Shown here in pieces: positions 19,301-39,533 of a stretch of 64,000 bases of DNA. Source of the stretch: Bacillota bacterium (GTDB taxonomy: Bacteria > Bacillota_I > Bacilli_A > RF39 > UBA660). The stretch's first letter is position 1. Each line of letters starts with the position of its first letter. The DNA lies in contig SVAM01000008.1 in the NCBI GenBank assembly GCA_015059425.1, positions 1 to 64,000 of the forward strand. Direction: 5' to 3'. The position numbers and the translations under genes are program-made. Below the pieces are notes generated by a model. The model was not told where the DNA came from, made no database searches, and saw only the letters and a program-made list of their open reading frames with translations.

Positions 19301-20686
19301 TTAATTATCAAAAAAATCTTTCCACGGATCTACTCTTTTTAAACTTTTAATTGCATTTTTTATAGTTATTTCATTTGGTTTAATTTTATCTAATTCACTC
19401 CATTTTATTGGGAAAGATATAGGCGCATTTTCTCTTGCTCTTAATGAGTATGGCGCCACACTTGTTGAACCTCTTGTGTTTCTTACCCAGTCTATAAATA
19501 TTTTACCTTTTCTTTTATCTTTTCGCATATTACTTGTATATTTATCTGGCCACTTAGCTTCCATAAGTTTAGCAATATTTTTTGCTATACCCCTAAACTC
19601 TTCCCAACTAACACTTTCTTTTATAGGAACTACTATATGATAACCTTTTCCGCCACTGGTTTTTAAATATGATTTTAAATTAAACCCATCTAATATACTT
19701 TTTAAATCTTTAACTCCTTGTCTTAACTTTTTTAAATCTAATTTTTCATCAGGATCTAAATCAAATACCATTAAATCAGGTTTTTCTAGTTTTTTCACTT
19801 TACTTCCCCATATGTGAAACTCAATACTATTCATTTGAGCTTCTGCTAATAATCCGGTAACGTCTGTTATGTAATAATAATCTTCTTTTTTATTATTGTT
19901 ATTTTGTAGTTTAATCTCTTTAATACCTTTACTTTTTGTTTCTAAATGTTTTTTAAAGAATATATTCCCTTCAATACCTTCTGGACATCTAATGGTACTT
20001 ATAATTCTGTTTTCTAAAAATGGTAACATTCTATCTGCTACTTTTTCATAATATTTCAAAACATCTAATTTGGTAATTTTTGATTTTTTATAAATTAATT
20101 TAGTTGGATTAGTTATTTTAATTTTGGATAATATATTTTTAATATTTTTTTTCTTTTTTGTTCCTTTTTCTATTTCTTCCATGGTTCTGTTGGTTCTTAT
20201 ACTTTTATTAAACTCGTTTATATCTTCATATTCATAATATTCATCTTCTTCTTTTATTAATAACCAGTTGTCTTCTTTAAAATGAACTAAATTCCAACAT
20301 CCTTTTAATCTTTTACCTTTTAAAATAAATTTAAAAGAACCACTATTAAAATTTGGTTTAGTTACACTTTCCCAGTATCCTTCATCCCATAACATAACTG
20401 TACCTCCACCATACTCTCCCTTAGGTATTGTTCCTTCAAAATTACGATAATCTAACGGATGATCTTCAACTTGAACCGCTAGTCTTCTATCTTTTGAATT
20501 GTATGATGGCCCTTTAGGTACTGCGAAACTTTTTAATGCGCCATCATATTCTAATCTTAAATCATAATGGTCTCTTCTTGCTAAATGATGTTGGACTACA
20601 AATCTTAATTTTTTACCAGATTTTGCTTTTTTACCTATTGGTTCGCTCGTTTTATTAAAATCTCTTTTTGTATTATATTTCTTCAT
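19301..20686 (-). CDS. LigD-like protein with 3'-phosphoesterase and polymerase/primase domains, no ATP-dependent ligase domain
   Basis: FVVQHHLARRDHYDLRLEYDGALKSFAVPKGP and GTIPKGEYGGGTV (phosphoesterase); LMVFDLDPDE..., TSGGKGYHIVVPI, VAPYSLRARENAPISFPI (polymerase). Confidence 0.92.
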   Translation of the reverse strand: MKKYNTKRDFNKTSEPIGKKAKSGKKLRFVVQHHLARRDHYDLRLEYDGALKSFAVPKGPSYNSKDRRLAVQVEDHPLDYRNFEGTIPKGEYGGGTVMLWDEGYWESVTKPNFNSGSFKFILKGKRLKGCWNLVHFKEDNWLLIKEEDEYYEYEDINEFNKSIRTNRTMEEIEKGTKKKKNIKNILSKIKITNPTKLIYKKSKITKLDVLKYYEKVADRMLPFLENRIISTIRCPEGIEGNIFFKKHLETKSKGIKEIKLQNNNNKKEDYYYITDVTGLLAEAQMNSIEFHIWGSKVKKLEKPDLMVFDLDPDEKLDLKKLRQGVKDLKSILDGFNLKSYLKTSGGKGYHIVVPIKESVSWEEFRGIAKNIAKLMEAKWPDKYTSNMRKDKRKGKIFIDWVRNTRGSTSVAPYSLRARENAPISFPIKWSELDKIKPNEITIKNAIKSLKRVDPWKDFFDN

Positions 20687-32486: not shown

Positions 32487-32516
32487 CAAAAAAACAAACA
32501 CTTATTGTGTTTGTTA
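32487..32516 (-). terminator. Intrinsic terminator after the Noc/ParB gene
   Basis: ACAAACAC-AATAA-GTGTTTGTTTTTTT on the minus strand. Confidence 0.8.
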
Positions 32517-33668
32517 GTCCTTTTTTACTTTTATTATAAATTGATAAGAATCTACTAAATCACTTTCTTCTAAAGACATTAAAAAACCTTTTTTTTCTAA
32601 TTCTTCTTTGACATCCCTAATTTTAGTTATCGCTGTTTTTAAATCTAAACCTAACTTTTCTTCTATTTTTTCTTCATAATCAGGGTCTAATGTTTCGATT
32701 AAATCAACAGGATCAAAGTAATTATTGTCTTGTACTTCTAAATTATTATTTATATACATATTAGTTTCCTCTTCTTTTGTTTCATTAATATTAGGTAATT
32801 CCATATTTAATTTAGGTAATACAACTTCTGTTTCAATCATATTCATATTTACTTTTTCATTTTCTAAAAAATTGAAAAAGTTACCCTTAGAATCATTTTG
32901 GGCATTATCAATTCGTACTATATCTGGATTAAATAAATTTTCTCTTTCAATTTCACGTAGTTTTTGCGCAATAGAACTTTCTTCGGTTATTTCAGGTATC
33001 TCTGATGCTTCTTTCTTTATACTTTCAATATCTATAGTTTTAGCAAGAGGAACTTCAGATGCACCATCCATGTATTTCTTTATTAAATCGTCTAACTGTC
33101 TTACTGTTAATCTTTCTTTTATAACTCTATTTAGCCAGTTTATTTGTTCTTCTTTTGTAGGTAAGACTAATAAAGAACGTGCATGCCTTTCACTAATTTT
33201 ATTATTTAATAAAGCGTCTTGTACTTCTTCTGCTAAATTAAGTAGTCGAAGTTTATTTGCAATAGCACTTTGTGATAAACCCATCTTTCTTGCTAATTCA
33301 CTTTGAGTTAAATATCCTTTATCCAATAAATTTTTGTAACTTCTTGCTTCCTCTATTACAGATAAATCCCTACGTTGAACGTTTTCTACAATAGCTACTT
33401 CAGCACTTTTATTATCATCAATATTAGATATTATAGCCGGAACTGTTGTTAAACCCGCTATGGTTGCTGCTTTATATCTTCTTTCTCCTGCTATAATTTC
33501 ATATTTATCTCCAACTCTTCTTAACACTAATGGTTGAATTATACCATGTTGTTTTATTGAATCTGCCAATTCTTCTAATCCTTTATCATCAAAGGTTAGT
33601 CTTGGTTGAAAACGATTTGGTATAATATCTTCAATAGGAATTTGCAAAATACTTTGCTCCATATTCAT
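32514..33668 (-). CDS. noc: ParB/Noc family chromosome partition/nucleoid occlusion protein
   Basis: IPIEDIIPNRFQPRLTFDDKGLEELADSIKQHGIIQPLVLR; YEIIAGERRYKAA; AEVAIVENVQRRDLS; SQSAIANKLRLL; next to the rsmG/mnmG/mnmE set. Confidence 0.88.
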   Translation of the reverse strand: MNMEQSILQIPIEDIIPNRFQPRLTFDDKGLEELADSIKQHGIIQPLVLRRVGDKYEIIAGERRYKAATIAGLTTVPAIISNIDDNKSAEVAIVENVQRRDLSVIEEARSYKNLLDKGYLTQSELARKMGLSQSAIANKLRLLNLAEEVQDALLNNKISERHARSLLVLPTKEEQINWLNRVIKERLTVRQLDDLIKKYMDGASEVPLAKTIDIESIKKEASEIPEITEESSIAQKLREIERENLFNPDIVRIDNAQNDSKGNFFNFLENEKVNMNMIETEVVLPKLNMELPNINETKEEETNMYINNNLEVQDNNYFDPVDLIETLDPDYEEKIEEKLGLDLKTAITKIRDVKEELEKKGFLMSLEESDLVDSYQFIIKVKKD

Positions 33669-33734
33669 ACTATCAGCCCCTACTTTTACTTATATTTAAT
33701 TTTAGCATTTTTTGTTTGTTTTTTCAATCTTATT

Positions 33735-33768
33735 ATTAAAAAAAGCTACAACATTTTTGTTGTAACTT
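33735..33768 (-). terminator. Intrinsic terminator separating the 33770..38761 unit from noc
   Basis: AAAGTTACAACA-AAAA-TGTTGTAGCTTTTTTT on the minus strand. Confidence 0.82.
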
Positions 33769-33769
33769 T

Positions 33770-35071
33770 TTAATTATTATCTTGAGCGTAGAACTCTATT
33801 TCTTCTGGCTTAACTTCGATATTGCCACGGAATTTTCTTCCTTGATCATAGTTTTGTTCTGCTCCAATACCATGTAATTTTAATGTTACAGTATAAGATT
33901 GTTTTGTATTTGGTGCAATTGCTATATGTTCTGCAAAAGTTTTTGTTTCAAATGGTGCAGTTATCCAATCTTTAGTATAACCGTTATTATCACTTTCAAC
34001 TTTATATTGGAAATTGTTACTTTCAAAGGTATTTTCTTGTATTATCCAATTTAAATCATAATACAAAGTTTGGTTTGATGTATTTTCGATTGTAAACTTA
34101 ATTGGCGGAATTACTGTATTAATGTTTTCTCCAGCAGGTTGATCATCCGGATAAATGTTATCAGCGTATACTGCTTCTTCAGATTCAAAATTTATAATCA
34201 TTATGGCTGCTTCAAATTCTATACCACCATTGCCGCTTGATACTCCACCACCATTAGTATTTGGTGTAAATCCAATACATTTTTTATCACATTTGTCATC
34301 GCCATCTTCATCACAGTTTAAGTCGCAAACACCATCACCGTTAGTATCGATATTCATATCTTTTAAACCATCATCATTTGTATCCTTGTCTAAATCTATA
34401 GTTCCATCGCCATCAAAATCAATGTTTAAATCTGGCCATCCATCATCGTTTGTATCACAATTAATATCACATTTTTTATCGTCATCTATGTCACGATTGA
34501 TTCTATTAAATAATCTATTGTTTTTATTAATTTGATTAAAGATATTTCTTCTATTGCCACGATAATCTATATTATAATCTGGTTTACTATCTTTATTATC
34601 ATCACAGTTAATATCACATTTTCTATCCCCATCAAGATCTAGGTTTAAATCTGCTATACCATCACTATCCAGGTCAATATTTAGATTTTGCATATCTCGG
34701 TATAATATTCCAGCATATGTTGCGGCTCCACCCATAAAAATAAAGCTTAATATAAATAGTACATATAACAAAGTAGTTGAGTTTGATTTTTTAAAACTAA
34801 AATTTAAATTATTTCCCTTTTTTTCGACTTTCAACCCATTTGATAAGTAAATATCTGTATCTTTTGTATCAAAGCAAATATTCATTACTTTTTCAATGTT
34901 TCTTTTATCCTTTTTTACTTCTTCGCCAAACATTTCATTGAAAGCAGTGCTTATTTTTTCTTCTTGTTCTTTTGCATTTAAAAGCATAAATTCTTTTAAA
35001 TCCATTGAAGTTTTCATTTGTTTATTTACATTTTTTTCATCAATATTGCTTTTTTTAAACATATTTACCAT
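33770..35071 (-). CDS. Single-pass membrane protein with Asp/Cys-rich thrombospondin-type-3/EF-hand-like repeats and a C-terminal beta-rich domain
   Basis: About 100 aa N-terminal region, one TM (TTLLYVLFILSFIFMGGAATYAGILY), then DLDSDGIADLNLDLDGDRKCDINCD...DTNGDGVCDLNCDEDGDDKCDKKC. Confidence 0.75.
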   Translation of the reverse strand: MVNMFKKSNIDEKNVNKQMKTSMDLKEFMLLNAKEQEEKISTAFNEMFGEEVKKDKRNIEKVMNICFDTKDTDIYLSNGLKVEKKGNNLNFSFKKSNSTTLLYVLFILSFIFMGGAATYAGILYRDMQNLNIDLDSDGIADLNLDLDGDRKCDINCDDNKDSKPDYNIDYRGNRRNIFNQINKNNRLFNRINRDIDDDKKCDINCDTNDDGWPDLNIDFDGDGTIDLDKDTNDDGLKDMNIDTNGDGVCDLNCDEDGDDKCDKKCIGFTPNTNGGGVSSGNGGIEFEAAIMIINFESEEAVYADNIYPDDQPAGENINTVIPPIKFTIENTSNQTLYYDLNWIIQENTFESNNFQYKVESDNNGYTKDWITAPFETKTFAEHIAIAPNTKQSYTVTLKLHGIGAEQNYDQGRKFRGNIEVKPEEIEFYAQDNN

Positions 35072-35078
35072 CCTTCTC

Positions 35079-36176
35079 TTATTTTAGTAAAGCTTCTGCT
35101 TTTTTCTTTCTTCTTTCATTTTCTTTTACAAAAGTTTTTATTGTTTGACGTATTTTATTATTAATTTTTATTTTTCTATTATATGCATCTTTAAATTCTT
35201 TAGATATTAATCTCATTAATGCATTTTCTGTAATATCATTACCAAATACGAAATCATTAATTATTTTACTAATATATGTATCTGAAACAATATTTTCTTG
35301 TTCTTTTTTTAATTTAAGTGCATCGTTTTCAACATACAAAGCTAAATCATATAATTTTTTAATTCCCTCGTCTTTTAATTCTTCATTAATTTTTTCAACC
35401 TTTGTTACTGGTTTGATATTATTTGCTTCTAAGAATTCCCATAATTCAACAGCTTTTATAAAATTTTGATCTTTTAAAATTACATTAGTTTTTCTTATTG
35501 GACTTCTTACTGGAGAACTGTCATGTAATGATTTTATAAAAGTTGAGTTTTTAAAATTTCCTATAACATCTCTTATGTATTCTATTCTTTCTTCTAATGA
35601 ATACCCATTATTATATTTATCCATTTCTTCTGTAAATGAAGATTCTAATGATAGACTCACTTTTACTGTTTCATTTTTGGAATAATGAGAACCATTAAAA
35701 TGTACTTCATTATTAACTTTTGCATAAGACTTTTGGTCTGATTCACTTAACTTATTTTCAACAAATTGATATAAATTATCTACTAATGATTTTATAAATC
35801 TATTTTCATATAGATCCGTTGTTTCTTCACGATATACATTTAGTATTTTTAATGGAATAATACTCCCGTCTTCTTTAACTTCTTGAATTAAATTAGTATT
35901 TTGAGCTAAGTGTTTAATACTTTCTTCCGTTACTATTTTGGCTTTTTCAATTGGAATAATATTTTCTTCTTGAATAATAAATTTTCTTGGATTTCTAATA
36001 ATATTATCTAAGTAAGGTATAGCTTCCTCTATGAAATCTATCCATTTAGTATCAGATATTTTTTGTTCTATTTCTCTTTTTACTAATATATCTGAATTTG
36101 TTTGATTAAAGAATGAATTAATTTTTTGTTTATCTAAACTTGAAATATATTCTACTATATCATTCATTTTAATCAC
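35079..36176 (-). CDS. DUF2357-like (McrC-related) protein without a visible nuclease domain
   Basis: NVYREETTDLYENRFIKSLVDNL motif; adjacent to an McrB-like AAA+; C-terminus is helical and Lys-rich with no PD-(D/E)xK pattern seen. Confidence 0.6.
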   Translation of the reverse strand: MIKMNDIVEYISSLDKQKINSFFNQTNSDILVKREIEQKISDTKWIDFIEEAIPYLDNIIRNPRKFIIQEENIIPIEKAKIVTEESIKHLAQNTNLIQEVKEDGSIIPLKILNVYREETTDLYENRFIKSLVDNLYQFVENKLSESDQKSYAKVNNEVHFNGSHYSKNETVKVSLSLESSFTEEMDKYNNGYSLEERIEYIRDVIGNFKNSTFIKSLHDSSPVRSPIRKTNVILKDQNFIKAVELWEFLEANNIKPVTKVEKINEELKDEGIKKLYDLALYVENDALKLKKEQENIVSDTYISKIINDFVFGNDITENALMRLISKEFKDAYNRKIKINNKIRQTIKTFVKENERRKKKAEALLK

Positions 36177-37682
36177 CTATATTGTCTTTTTAAGTCTTAA
36201 TAAATATGCTTTACATTCTGGCATATTACCTTTACCAAATAAATCTTCTAAATATTTAATAAAACCATCAATTTCATCTTTTATGTATGCTAAATTTAAT
36301 TGTTCAAATTTTCTTAAAATTTTATGACTTATTAAATAATCAATTCCTGCAATTTCATCTCCACCGCAAGCAACATATGCTGGAACAAATTCTTTTAATT
36401 GTTTTACGATTCTGTTACCAAATGCTAAACGGAAATGATTTATTACATAATTATCCATTTCTTTAATTTTATTTAAATTTTCTTCACTTACAGCATGTTC
36501 TTTCTCTGCTTTTTCATATAAAGATTCTAAATAAGTATAACTTGTTTTTAATGCTTCAGTTTCAGGAGCTTCAAAAGCTTCACATTTATTATCAATAGCT
36601 ATAGGCATTGCTCTATCATATACTTTATCTGTAATCATGAATGTTGAGTCATCGTTATTAATTGTTCCTATATACCACATGTTTTCTGGTATTTTTAACT
36701 TACCTTCATTAAGTTTTATAGGGTCATTTTCCCATTTATTTGGAACTAACTCAATAACCCAGTCTTTTTTATTAGGTAGCTCTAATACTGATAACATTTC
36801 TGCAAAATAGTATTCAACACGTGAAATATTCATTTCATCTAATAATGTTATATATACTTCATCTGTATATTGTGCTTCGTACATACTTGCAAGAATTTCA
36901 GTTTCATTAAATCTTTTTGTAAATTCATTGAAATATCCAAATATTTCCGTTGAATCTCTCCATGATGGTTGAACACTTGCTACAGTAGTTTCGTTTTGAA
37001 CAAATGACCCAAAAGCATATGCAAGTGATGTTTTACCTGTACCACTTATACCTTCTAATATTATTAATTTATTAGAGGCTAAAGCAGCTATAAATAATCT
37101 TATTAGATTTATATCATAATATAATCCTAATTTTGATGCTGAATAATTTCTAAATTGTTCACAAAATTCATTTAATGAAAAATTGTTTTCAATAGGCGCT
37201 GGTAAATTTTCAGCAAACCTCTCATCAACGTTAGTTAATTTAAAGAATCTACTTTCACCATTTTTTAATTCATTTACCATATTGCCATCTTCATCATACT
37301 CAATTTCACCAAATTCATTAGTTAATTCTGAAAACTTTGCATTTTGTTGTCTAAGCTTAGCAATATCTCCATTAAGATTTTCAATTTCTTCAATTAATCT
37401 ATCTTCTTTTTTAACATTTCTTCTATATCTAGCATAAGTTCTTATTCCTTTTACTATTAAAAATATAATAAATGCATAAATAGCAATTAAAAATATTATT
37501 GCAAATATACAGATTACTAATCCCATGCCTGTTAAATCTGATTTGTAATTTTGAATTACATCAATATAGTTTAAAACATTAAACATTTGCCCAATGCCAC
37601 TTACTATAGCTTTTAAAATATTTATTAACCCCTCAAAAAACGGTTCAAGAAATTCTGTAAAAAAATTCCCATATGTACTCAT
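36177..37682 (-). CDS. Membrane-anchored McrB/MoxR-like AAA+ ATPase
   Basis: N-terminal hydrophobic segments, coiled coil, then EGISGTGKTSLA (Walker A), YITLLDEMNISRVEYYFAEML (Walker B), IGTINNDDSTFMITDKVYDRA (sensor region). Confidence 0.85.
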   Translation of the reverse strand: MSTYGNFFTEFLEPFFEGLINILKAIVSGIGQMFNVLNYIDVIQNYKSDLTGMGLVICIFAIIFLIAIYAFIIFLIVKGIRTYARYRRNVKKEDRLIEEIENLNGDIAKLRQQNAKFSELTNEFGEIEYDEDGNMVNELKNGESRFFKLTNVDERFAENLPAPIENNFSLNEFCEQFRNYSASKLGLYYDINLIRLFIAALASNKLIILEGISGTGKTSLAYAFGSFVQNETTVASVQPSWRDSTEIFGYFNEFTKRFNETEILASMYEAQYTDEVYITLLDEMNISRVEYYFAEMLSVLELPNKKDWVIELVPNKWENDPIKLNEGKLKIPENMWYIGTINNDDSTFMITDKVYDRAMPIAIDNKCEAFEAPETEALKTSYTYLESLYEKAEKEHAVSEENLNKIKEMDNYVINHFRLAFGNRIVKQLKEFVPAYVACGGDEIAGIDYLISHKILRKFEQLNLAYIKDEIDGFIKYLEDLFGKGNMPECKAYLLRLKKTI

Positions 37683-38761
37683 TATAATTCCTCCTCTTTA
37701 TTTTTTAAAATAAATTTTATATTCATATTTTTCCATTGTTCAAAATTTTCTTCATTATTTTTTTTGAATTTGTTATTTATTATGACTGTCATCTCAGCTT
37801 TTAATGCTTCAACATTAATATTTTCTATTTCTGAACAATCATATACAACCGACAATCCTATATCTTCAATTTTTTTAATTAATTCCTCATTTTCATTTAT
37901 TACTTTGAAATCAACCAAAACATTAATATGTTCTTTTAGATATTTATTGTTAACATTTTTTAATGCTGAAGATTTCTTAAGATAAGAAATTGGAATTAAA
38001 TAATTATATACAGCATTATTACCTACTAACTCTTTTAATATTTGGACATTTAATAAATCAATTGATATACTTGCATATTCATCTTCAAATTCATTATTGA
38101 CTTTTTTAACAAGTCTTGAATTATATTCATATAAACTAGGAATACTATAGTGATATTTAATTAAATAATATAAAGGTCGATTTGTATATGTAATATATTG
38201 ATTGTATGAATTTGTAACCATAAATTCATTAAAGAATTTTGTTTCTGTTATATTACTTTTTTTAACTAACATAAATAATTGTTGAATAGTTTTATTATCA
38301 TTTCTAATTTTTGTATTATTGATATTTTCTAAATCTTTTAATAAATTTTTAAATTTATATTTGGTTACTTTATAATCTCCTGTAATTGCATTTGATGATT
38401 TGTCAATGTATGATGCTACACAAATAAGTATAGTTAATAAAAATACTTCTCTTGGATAATTTTGAATTATTTCTAAACTATTGTCTTTTTCACAACTAGT
38501 TGAAATACACAATAATATTGTTTTATTTAATTTCTTTAAATATTCGATAGGATTATCATAATAATTAGTATTTAAATAATAATTATCTACATAATTATCT
38601 ATTACTTTTTTAGCTAAATCTGAAAACGTTTTTTGATTTGTCCATAAAGCGTTATTTTCTACTTCAATTATTTTTTCTAAATGTTGGACATAATTAAAAA
38701 TATCTTTTTTCTTTTTTGCTAAGTATTTTTCAAATATACTGCCACTCACAATCTTTGTCAC
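37682..38761 (-). CDS. Conserved-looking protein of unknown function, first gene of the AAA+ unit
   Basis: Intact ORF; GTG start at 38761 or 38749 (AGGTGA upstream of the second); abuts the AAA+ gene. Confidence 0.65.
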   Translation of the reverse strand: MTKIVSGSIFEKYLAKKKKDIFNYVQHLEKIIEVENNALWTNQKTFSDLAKKVIDNYVDNYYLNTNYYDNPIEYLKKLNKTILLCISTSCEKDNSLEIIQNYPREVFLLTILICVASYIDKSSNAITGDYKVTKYKFKNLLKDLENINNTKIRNDNKTIQQLFMLVKKSNITETKFFNEFMVTNSYNQYITYTNRPLYYLIKYHYSIPSLYEYNSRLVKKVNNEFEDEYASISIDLLNVQILKELVGNNAVYNYLIPISYLKKSSALKNVNNKYLKEHINVLVDFKVINENEELIKKIEDIGLSVVYDCSEIENINVEALKAEMTVIINNKFKKNNEENFEQWKNMNIKFILKNKEEEL

Positions 38762-38779
38762 CTAACCTATTCTCTATAC

Positions 38780-38808
38780 ATTATAGCAAAAAAAATATAG
38801 TATTGCAA
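38780..38808 (-). promoter_or_regulatory. Sigma-A-type promoter of the four-gene unit
   Basis: TTGCAA-N17-TATAAT on the minus strand, overlapping the rsmG terminator. Confidence 0.7.
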
Positions 38809-38820
38809 TTACTATATTTT
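38786..38820 (-). terminator. Intrinsic terminator after rsmG
   Basis: ATATAGTA-ATTGCAA-TACTATAT followed by a T-run on the minus strand. Confidence 0.8.
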
Positions 38821-38825
38821 AATTT

Positions 38826-39533
38826 TTATTTTAACGTTTTTTTTAGAATTTGGTCATATCTTCTTGGGTAATTTGTCGGTGTTTTTTCTTTTTTTTCTAC
38901 AGCTATTATATTTCTAGTACTTTTTTCAATTGGTAATATAAATTCTTCTATTTTTATAATTTCTGAACTTAATTTTTTTATCGTAGTTTTTGCTTCATTT
39001 ATTTCTTCTAAAGCATTACCTTTCATAGCAATAAAATAACCATTCACTTTTACATAAGGGATAGACAATTCACTTAATACACGTAAGTTAGACACCGCTC
39101 TTGATGTAACTATATCAAAGTATTCACGATAAGTATCACTTAATTCTTCAGCTCTTCCATGAATACATTTAATATTCTCTAATTTTAATATTTTAATAAC
39201 TTCATTTAAGAATGTTATTTTTTTATTATTTGAGTCTAATAAAATTATGTTTAATTTCGGAAAAAATATTTTTAATACTAGCCCTGGGAAACCTGCGCCT
39301 GTACCAATATCTAAAATATTTAATTCTTTATCTAAGTCAATTACTTTTGTAATAGTTAGTGAATCATAAAAGTGTTTTAAATATATTTCTTCATCTGTTT
39401 TTATAGCCGTTAAATTAAATTTTCCATTATATTCAATTAACATATCCTTAAATATTTTTAAATCATACAATTCATGCTCAGTAACTTCTATATTTATTTT
39501 TTTTAATTCTTCAATAAATAAATCTATATTCAT
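38826..39533 (-). CDS. rsmG: 16S rRNA (guanine(527)-N(7))-methyltransferase
   Basis: NLTAIKTDEEIYLKHFYDSL; ILDIGTGAGFPGL; RAEELSDTYREYFDIVTSRAVSNL. Confidence 0.96.
   Translation of the reverse strand: MNIDLFIEELKKINIEVTEHELYDLKIFKDMLIEYNGKFNLTAIKTDEEIYLKHFYDSLTITKVIDLDKELNILDIGTGAGFPGLVLKIFFPKLNIILLDSNNKKITFLNEVIKILKLENIKCIHGRAEELSDTYREYFDIVTSRAVSNLRVLSELSIPYVKVNGYFIAMKGNALEEINEAKTTIKKLSSEIIKIEEFILPIEKSTRNIIAVEKKEKTPTNYPRRYDQILKKTLK

Follow-up and report, generated by a model that had tools for sequence, protein, structure and literature searches.

McrB proteins form hexameric AAA+ rings that are stimulated by the stalk of their partner McrC, and to our knowledge restriction is the sole known function of motors of the McrBC type. 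A further branch, CoCoPALM, was named by Bell et al. (eLife 2024, PMC11090510). It comprises a McrB-like GTPase of the NxD type with an FtsB-like transmembrane (TM) segment and coiled coil, signal peptidases and McrC homologues, and its DUF2357 partner usually has a coiled coil. The account occupies one paragraph in section 7 of that paper, with details deferred to a later one. Searches of one literature library on CoCoPALM, and on the candidate defence system PDC-M26, returned nothing beyond this CoCoNuT paper. Here we describe a related four-gene cassette (g1–g4, Table 1) in a window of 64,000 nt, the whole stretch of DNA analysed, from the class Bacilli_A (positions 1 to 64,000 of contig SVAM01000008.1, assembly GCA_015059425.1). 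A preliminary description made from the sequence alone had placed a membrane-anchored McrB-like unit here, between rsmG and noc.

CoCoPALM is the published description that fits the cassette best, as a branch barely described in that paragraph and with its role left unexplained there. Common to both are a McrB GTPase of the NxD type with an N-terminal TM segment, possibly a coiled coil (judged by eye), a nuclease-free DUF2357 partner and, at sister loci of the same family, signal peptidases. Unlike CoCoPALM, the window locus lacks a signal peptidase, adds the EAL-like g1 and the surface protein g4, and encodes a short g3; the links of sister loci to GGDEF-EAL proteins, TasA and giant proteins go unmentioned in the CoCoPALM paragraph. 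Because signal peptidases occur at sister loci and not at the window locus, we regard the cassette as a derived relative of CoCoPALM and not a strict member.

We assign a probability of roughly 0.55 to the reading that g1–g4 constitute a self-contained, nuclease-free membrane machine of the McrB/McrC type dedicated to a cell-surface protein. Its parts and lineage are well supported by sequence comparison. A narrower version is put forward tentatively, in which a McrB/McrC-type NTPase was repurposed as an engine: a membrane ring with its DUF2357 stalk, gated by a decayed EAL-fold adaptor, would export, assemble or release SipW-type fibres and, at this locus, a single calcium-repeat adhesin.

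Results

As initially described, four genes lie between rsmG and a noc/ParB-like gene; all are on the minus strand. Genes g1 and g2 overlap by 1 nt, g2 and g3 abut with 0 nt between them, and g3 and g4 are separated by 7 nt; this tight spacing makes a single operon likely. Genome scans and whole-genome searches located g1–g4, identically ordered, in no fewer than eight further genomes (L014, L016, L017, L018, L019, L020, L021 and L022). Protein similarity was collinear across these loci, with 77–78% identity for the g2 AAA+ protein in L014, L016, L017 and L018. Recurrence of one gene set in one order, with collinear similarity, indicates that the set did not arise by chance. In L015, g1–g3 are followed by the end of the contig. 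L023 has the order g4-g1-g2-g3-g4', where g4' is a second g4-like protein, together with SipW and camelysin-like genes. The AAA+ sequences of L017 and L149 are identical and were counted once. Among close relatives, identity was ~77% for g2, 58–64% for g3, 54–57% for g4 and 35–41% for g1.

The recurring set sits at different sites. It is flanked by rsmG and noc in the window, by an ftsI cluster and lepB in L017 and L019, and by a glyS-like neighbour in L014 (flank genes in relatives were named by inspection). Such differing flanks mark the cassette as an accessory unit that has moved. Flanks in relatives are housekeeping genes, with no defence genes noticed among them. When 24 further members of the window's genus were examined, g2 was absent from every genome (0/24). 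At L021:1867-5488 the cassette lies between a tad/CpaF-like pilus cluster and ftsW/mraY-like genes. A LepB-type peptidase beside g4 in L017 and L019 was considered as a member of the system; it is of the bacterial type TIGR02227 and was rejected, since a LepB-like gene adjoins the same neighbour in the window's own genome, where no cassette accompanies it.

The g2 protein carries the Walker A, Walker B and sensor-1 Asn motifs in a McrB context. The motifs first read from the sequence (GISGTGKT, LLDEMN and GTINNDD) are conserved in the family alignment. The NxD signature occurs as NNDD, NKDD and NRDD, and as NHDE and NQDE in plasmid and phage relatives, with Asp invariant at position 3. Searched against the PDB, the g2 profile had E. 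coli McrB (6hz4) as its sole match (E 4.4e-6). A membrane tether, also proposed at the outset, is predicted from hydropathy and alignment conservation. Where several TM segments had been suggested, one strong helix is supported; the stretch preceding it (aa 19–37) is more weakly hydrophobic. A stretch that by eye resembles a coiled coil follows the helix at aa ~90–120. Regarding the FtsB-like TM of CoCoPALM, a match of g2 to FtsL was sub-threshold only. No DNA-specificity domain was matched in g2, its N-terminus being the membrane segment.

The proposed DUF2357-like partner was borne out by a Pfam match of g3 to DUF2357 (PF09823, E 2.6e-10, aa 56–154), and nothing was found for g3 among PDB profiles. 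The g3 protein is short (365 aa); many sister loci encode considerably longer DUF2357 proteins, of up to 861 aa. The first reading had seen no nuclease domain, and searches by family, motif and fold agreed. No nuclease family matched any of g1–g4, and the invariant columns of the g3 alignment (A2) contain no D...(D/E)xK set, conserved columns ending at residue ~250. Among the leading fold-search matches of g1 and g4 there was no nuclease. A hidden nuclease in g1 was accordingly dismissed, the fold search having returned EAL domains. Neither a nuclease nor a defence-island context, which together would have recast the cassette as ordinary McrBC, was found.

Surface-protein genes recur around the wider AAA+ family. 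A search of the class with the g2 profile recovered the family from 122 of 346 genomes, and many of the proteins have the full N-terminus. A DUF2357 protein is the next gene in 27 of 27 loci and in 16 of 18 of a further set. Signal peptidases near these genes either exceeded the TIGR02228 cut-off or matched the SipW model. Among the SipW-type peptidases above cut-off (104 in 43 genomes), 58 are located no more than 8 kb from one of the 68 family AAA+ genes, a neighbourhood holding ~1.6% of the sequence and so expected to hold ~1.6% of the peptidases. This enrichment is large, in a sample of genomes chosen for the AAA+ gene, in which loci of close relatives are non-independent and genome size is approximate, so that its P value should be read loosely. 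Counted by locus, the association holds for 38 of the 68 AAA+ genes. Other neighbours are TasA/camelysin-like proteins with signal ends TYAWF and TFAWF, giant surface proteins of 2000–2650 aa, and proteins with GGDEF and EAL domains. The sister loci thereby resemble SipW-TasA/camelysin fibre operons in their SipW-type peptidases and in the A[WYF]F exit of their signal peptides, whereas the classical operons have no McrB/McrC motor. A third arrangement was seen in L138, L139 and L148, where the order AAA+, DUF2357, second AAA+ is followed by exported proteins of 845–1676 aa; here the motor is duplicated in tandem, with a copy on either side of the stalk protein.

When the AAA+ tree is rooted on relatives from plasmids and phages, each of its main halves contains SipW-linked loci. 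The window clade (10 rows) is nested within one half with support 100/99; support for its exact sister is 87/42. SipW-linked loci in both halves and a nested window clade together suggest that the surface link is probably ancestral. On the simplest reading of these sequences, the SipW link would be old and the window clade would have lost its local peptidase. The window cassette would then be a streamlined derivative of the larger SipW/surface-protein loci of the same class, which carry the same AAA+/DUF2357 pair.

As first described, the last gene, g4, is predicted to encode a surface protein rich in Cys and Asp; it has one TM helix and repeats rich in Asp, Asn and Cys, with paired Cys. Its cytosolic domain of ~95 aa is unique to g4 among 2154 open reading frames (ORFs) of the examined loci. 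The TM exits of g4 proteins (ATYAG, ATYSG and GTYAY) are like those of the SipW-type substrates at sister loci. Profile comparison with those substrates gave E 0.002–0.01, which does not establish homology. No family matched g4 above cut-off. Assignment of g4 as a TasA homologue was rejected on this ground and on a fold search that returned generic CBM/PA14 beta-sandwiches. The g4 of L014 (11120-14203) has 1027 aa and far more calcium-type repeats, and stalk length appears freely variable. In some genomes of the family (G071, G074, G088, G113 and G116) the C-terminal beta-sandwich recurs across many distinct proteins, like a shared surface module. Elsewhere in the window's own genome, contig C17 (L130:9191-12248) encodes a SipW-type peptidase and, adjacent to it, two camelysin-like proteins of 247 aa that share the same N-terminus. 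This may be a fibre locus that could serve g4 in trans.

The cytosolic protein g1 gave no family match above cut-off and no Pfam match, and against PDB sequences only a chance match. Its AF2 model (pLDDT 87.4, pTM 0.86) was searched against the PDB with Foldseek, and EAL domains (FimX, BifA, LapD and others) led the list. Alignment of the g1 family with GGDEF-EAL profiles was collinear and scored 21–23; 80 column-shuffled decoys reached at most 17.5 and six reversed decoys at most 13.2. Nine giant-protein loci have a gene for a TM protein immediately upstream of g2; its GGDEF-EAL character decays by degrees, with matches running from 2e-40 to undetectable (7 of 9 detectable). Orthologues of g1 occupy the same upstream slot at other four-gene loci, and homology links g1 to the proteins encoded in this slot at the family's SipW loci (E 1.3e-10). 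In the g1 alignment (A5), Y57 is the sole invariant residue; the EAL signature and catalytic residues are not kept. Since secondary-structure order, fold search, slot and collinear alignment agree, sequence and model together make it probable that g1 is a decayed EAL-like fold of EAL ancestry.

The site of the cassette appears to be ordinary. The preliminary description had taken direct rsmG-noc adjacency as the order in many Firmicutes. Within the class it does occur in families other than the window's (L088, L090 and L091); in the window's own genus the interval is a variable slot in which congeners carry other genes. What they encode in the slot (window 33668-38826; L075-L087) includes an exported protein of ~250 aa and a protein of ~470 aa, among others. 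Variation within the genus implies that the insertion site is not special. Outside the cassette, a 461-aa ORF (window 19301-20686) has a start resembling a LigD-type 3'-phosphoesterase domain, unusual for a genome of 1.1 Mb.

Table 1. Genes of the cassette, their predicted features and the flanking genes (window positions)
Feature	Residues (aa)	Position	Strand	Description
g1	359 in total	37682-38761	minus	cytosolic, fast-evolving; helical N-half and EAL-like alpha/beta C-half
g1 EAL-like region	~180-359	37685..38224	minus	probable degenerate partial TIM-barrel; catalytic residues absent
g2	501 in total	36177-37682	minus	predicted membrane-anchored McrB-type AAA+ NTPase, NxD motif type
g2 TM helix	59-77	37452..37508	minus	predicted; mean hydropathy 3.32; conserved in alignment
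g2 Walker A GISGTGKT	211-218	37029..37052	minus	invariant in alignment A4
g2 Walker B LLDEMN	280-285	36828..36845	minus	LDEMN invariant in alignment
g2 sensor/signature GTINNDD	339-345	36648..36668	minus	NxD then D/E across family
g3	365 in total	35079-36176	minus	DUF2357 (McrC N-terminal stalk type), without nuclease motif
g4	433 in total	33770-35071	minus	predicted surface protein: ~95-aa cytosolic domain, TM, Asp/Cys-rich repeats, C-terminal beta-sandwich
g4 TM	100-118	34718..34774	minus	predicted; ends in conserved [AS][TS]Y, like camelysin/SipW-type signal exit
g4 repeats DxDxDGxxDxN	~129-265	34277..34687	minus	thrombospondin-3-like, calcium-type; from sequence, alignment A3
g4 beta-sandwich	~291-422	33806..34201	minus	AF2 model, pLDDT 82
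rsmG		38826-39533		flank of g1-g4 cassette
noc/ParB-like gene		32514-33668		flank of g1-g4 cassette

Discussion

A working scheme can be drawn from these parts, in which ring assembly, direction of work and substrate are what we infer. Like McrB, g2 would form a hexameric AAA+ ring, which its N-terminal helix would anchor in the membrane. The DUF2357 stalk of g3 would insert into this ring and stimulate NTP hydrolysis as McrC does; the analogy draws on what is established for McrB and McrC and on the CoCoNuT paper (PMC11090510). The decayed EAL-fold adaptor g1 may couple or gate the motor. The ring would act on the cytosolic N-terminal domain or the TM of g4, and its action would drive or control insertion, clustering, display or release of g4. 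Outside the cell, the calcium-type repeat stalk and beta-sandwich tip may serve as an adhesin or fibre element. Both its membrane anchor and its partners suggest that g2 acts at the membrane, with a surface protein and not DNA as its substrate.

Several observations weigh against a machine of this kind. No SipW gene is present at the window locus, the nearest in its genome being the one on contig C17. The AAA+ domain of g2 matches the candidate-defence model PDC-M26A (5.8e-40). Foldseek matches of the g4 beta-sandwich to CBM and PA14 were weak (E 1.5e-3 to 1e-2). For g1, the EAL matches had E >= 0.25 and TM-scores of 0.26–0.49, which makes the fold result suggestive only, and the hhalign probability against GGDEF-EAL was ~1%, not significant alone; a convergence of individually weak lines is what suggests the EAL assignment. 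At E <= 1e-20 no EAL gene was found in the window's own genome, and its single GGDEF belongs to a 676-aa frame which, going by size, is probably GdpP. Cyclic di-GMP (c-di-GMP) is therefore unlikely as a ligand of g1 or as a signal in this organism, as judged from its gene content.

Among the alternatives, ordinary McrBC restriction by means of a diverged nuclease is highly improbable. The cassette has in common with E. coli McrBC (Type IV restriction) the AAA+ domain and the DUF2357 stalk, g2 being homologous to McrB and g3 to the McrC stalk. Unlike McrBC, it has a surface partner, g4, conserved in the set, and a TM tether at the g2 N-terminus where the DNA-binding domain would be. The PD-(D/E)xK motif is missing from g3 and g1 gave no nuclease fold; with neither nuclease nor DNA-binding domain detected, we rejected this reading. 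CoCoNuTs likewise have an NxD GTPase and can have a McrC homologue without nuclease, but in that case always encode a HEPN or other nuclease, and none was detected in g1 or g4. Defence by other means is the foremost rival outside surface functions, and an unlikely explanation. In this view g4 or the membrane complex would detect phage at the cell envelope, and an abortive response without a classical nuclease would be triggered by the McrB/McrC-like motor, with g1 as effector or sensor. The PDC-M26A match, the fast evolution of g1 relative to g2, and the patchy distribution over several insertion sites would suit it. So would the nearest plasmid kin of the AAA+ domain, which lie in PP2C-kinase-AAA-McrB-like-DUF2357 operons. 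However, the resemblance to PDC-M26, a candidate defence system in PADLOC, is limited to the NTPase domain (best stretch, profile 312-437 of 724). Partner genes of PDC-M26 had no matches at the cassette, where PP2C and kinase, the likely partners, are absent; the plasmid relatives, in turn, are accompanied by PP2C, kinase and large AAA genes and lack a surface gene. Phage and plasmid matches to the family AAA+ are of partial length only. The set contains no recognisable effector, relatives' flanks are free of noticed defence genes, and the usual partners of the family are SipW, TasA-like and giant surface proteins.

It is also doubtful that the cassette is purely an inside-out switch, in which the EAL-like g1 senses a nucleotide or other ligand and the membrane ring releases or retains an existing adhesin, with no role in assembly, following LapD/LapA-like logic. 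The g1 fold and the surface-protein linkage recall the degenerate GGDEF-EAL regulators LapD and FimX. GGDEF-EAL proteins adjoin g2 in sister loci, and g4 keeps its own conserved cytosolic domain. Unlike LapD and FimX, however, g1 has neither the signature residues nor a GGDEF domain, and its signalling residues are not conserved. The shortage of EAL and GGDEF genes in the genome also speaks against a switch, and no LapG-like protease was seen.

The initial proposal of a trans-envelope machine fits much better than restriction, with a nuclease-free, tethered motor, surface partners and housekeeping flanks. Its kind is not new, CoCoPALM having been named, and for defence the PDC-M26A match is the one, weak, pointer. 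Because relatives of the cassette adjoin cell-surface fibre genes, its most likely role is in the construction or control of surface structures, and defence by cutting DNA is probably not its function. Should this hold, the McrB/McrC motor family would have a further field of work across the envelope, and the unexplained CoCoPALM branch would gain a concrete, testable role. The four-gene cassette would be its compact form, and hence the easiest to express and dissect.

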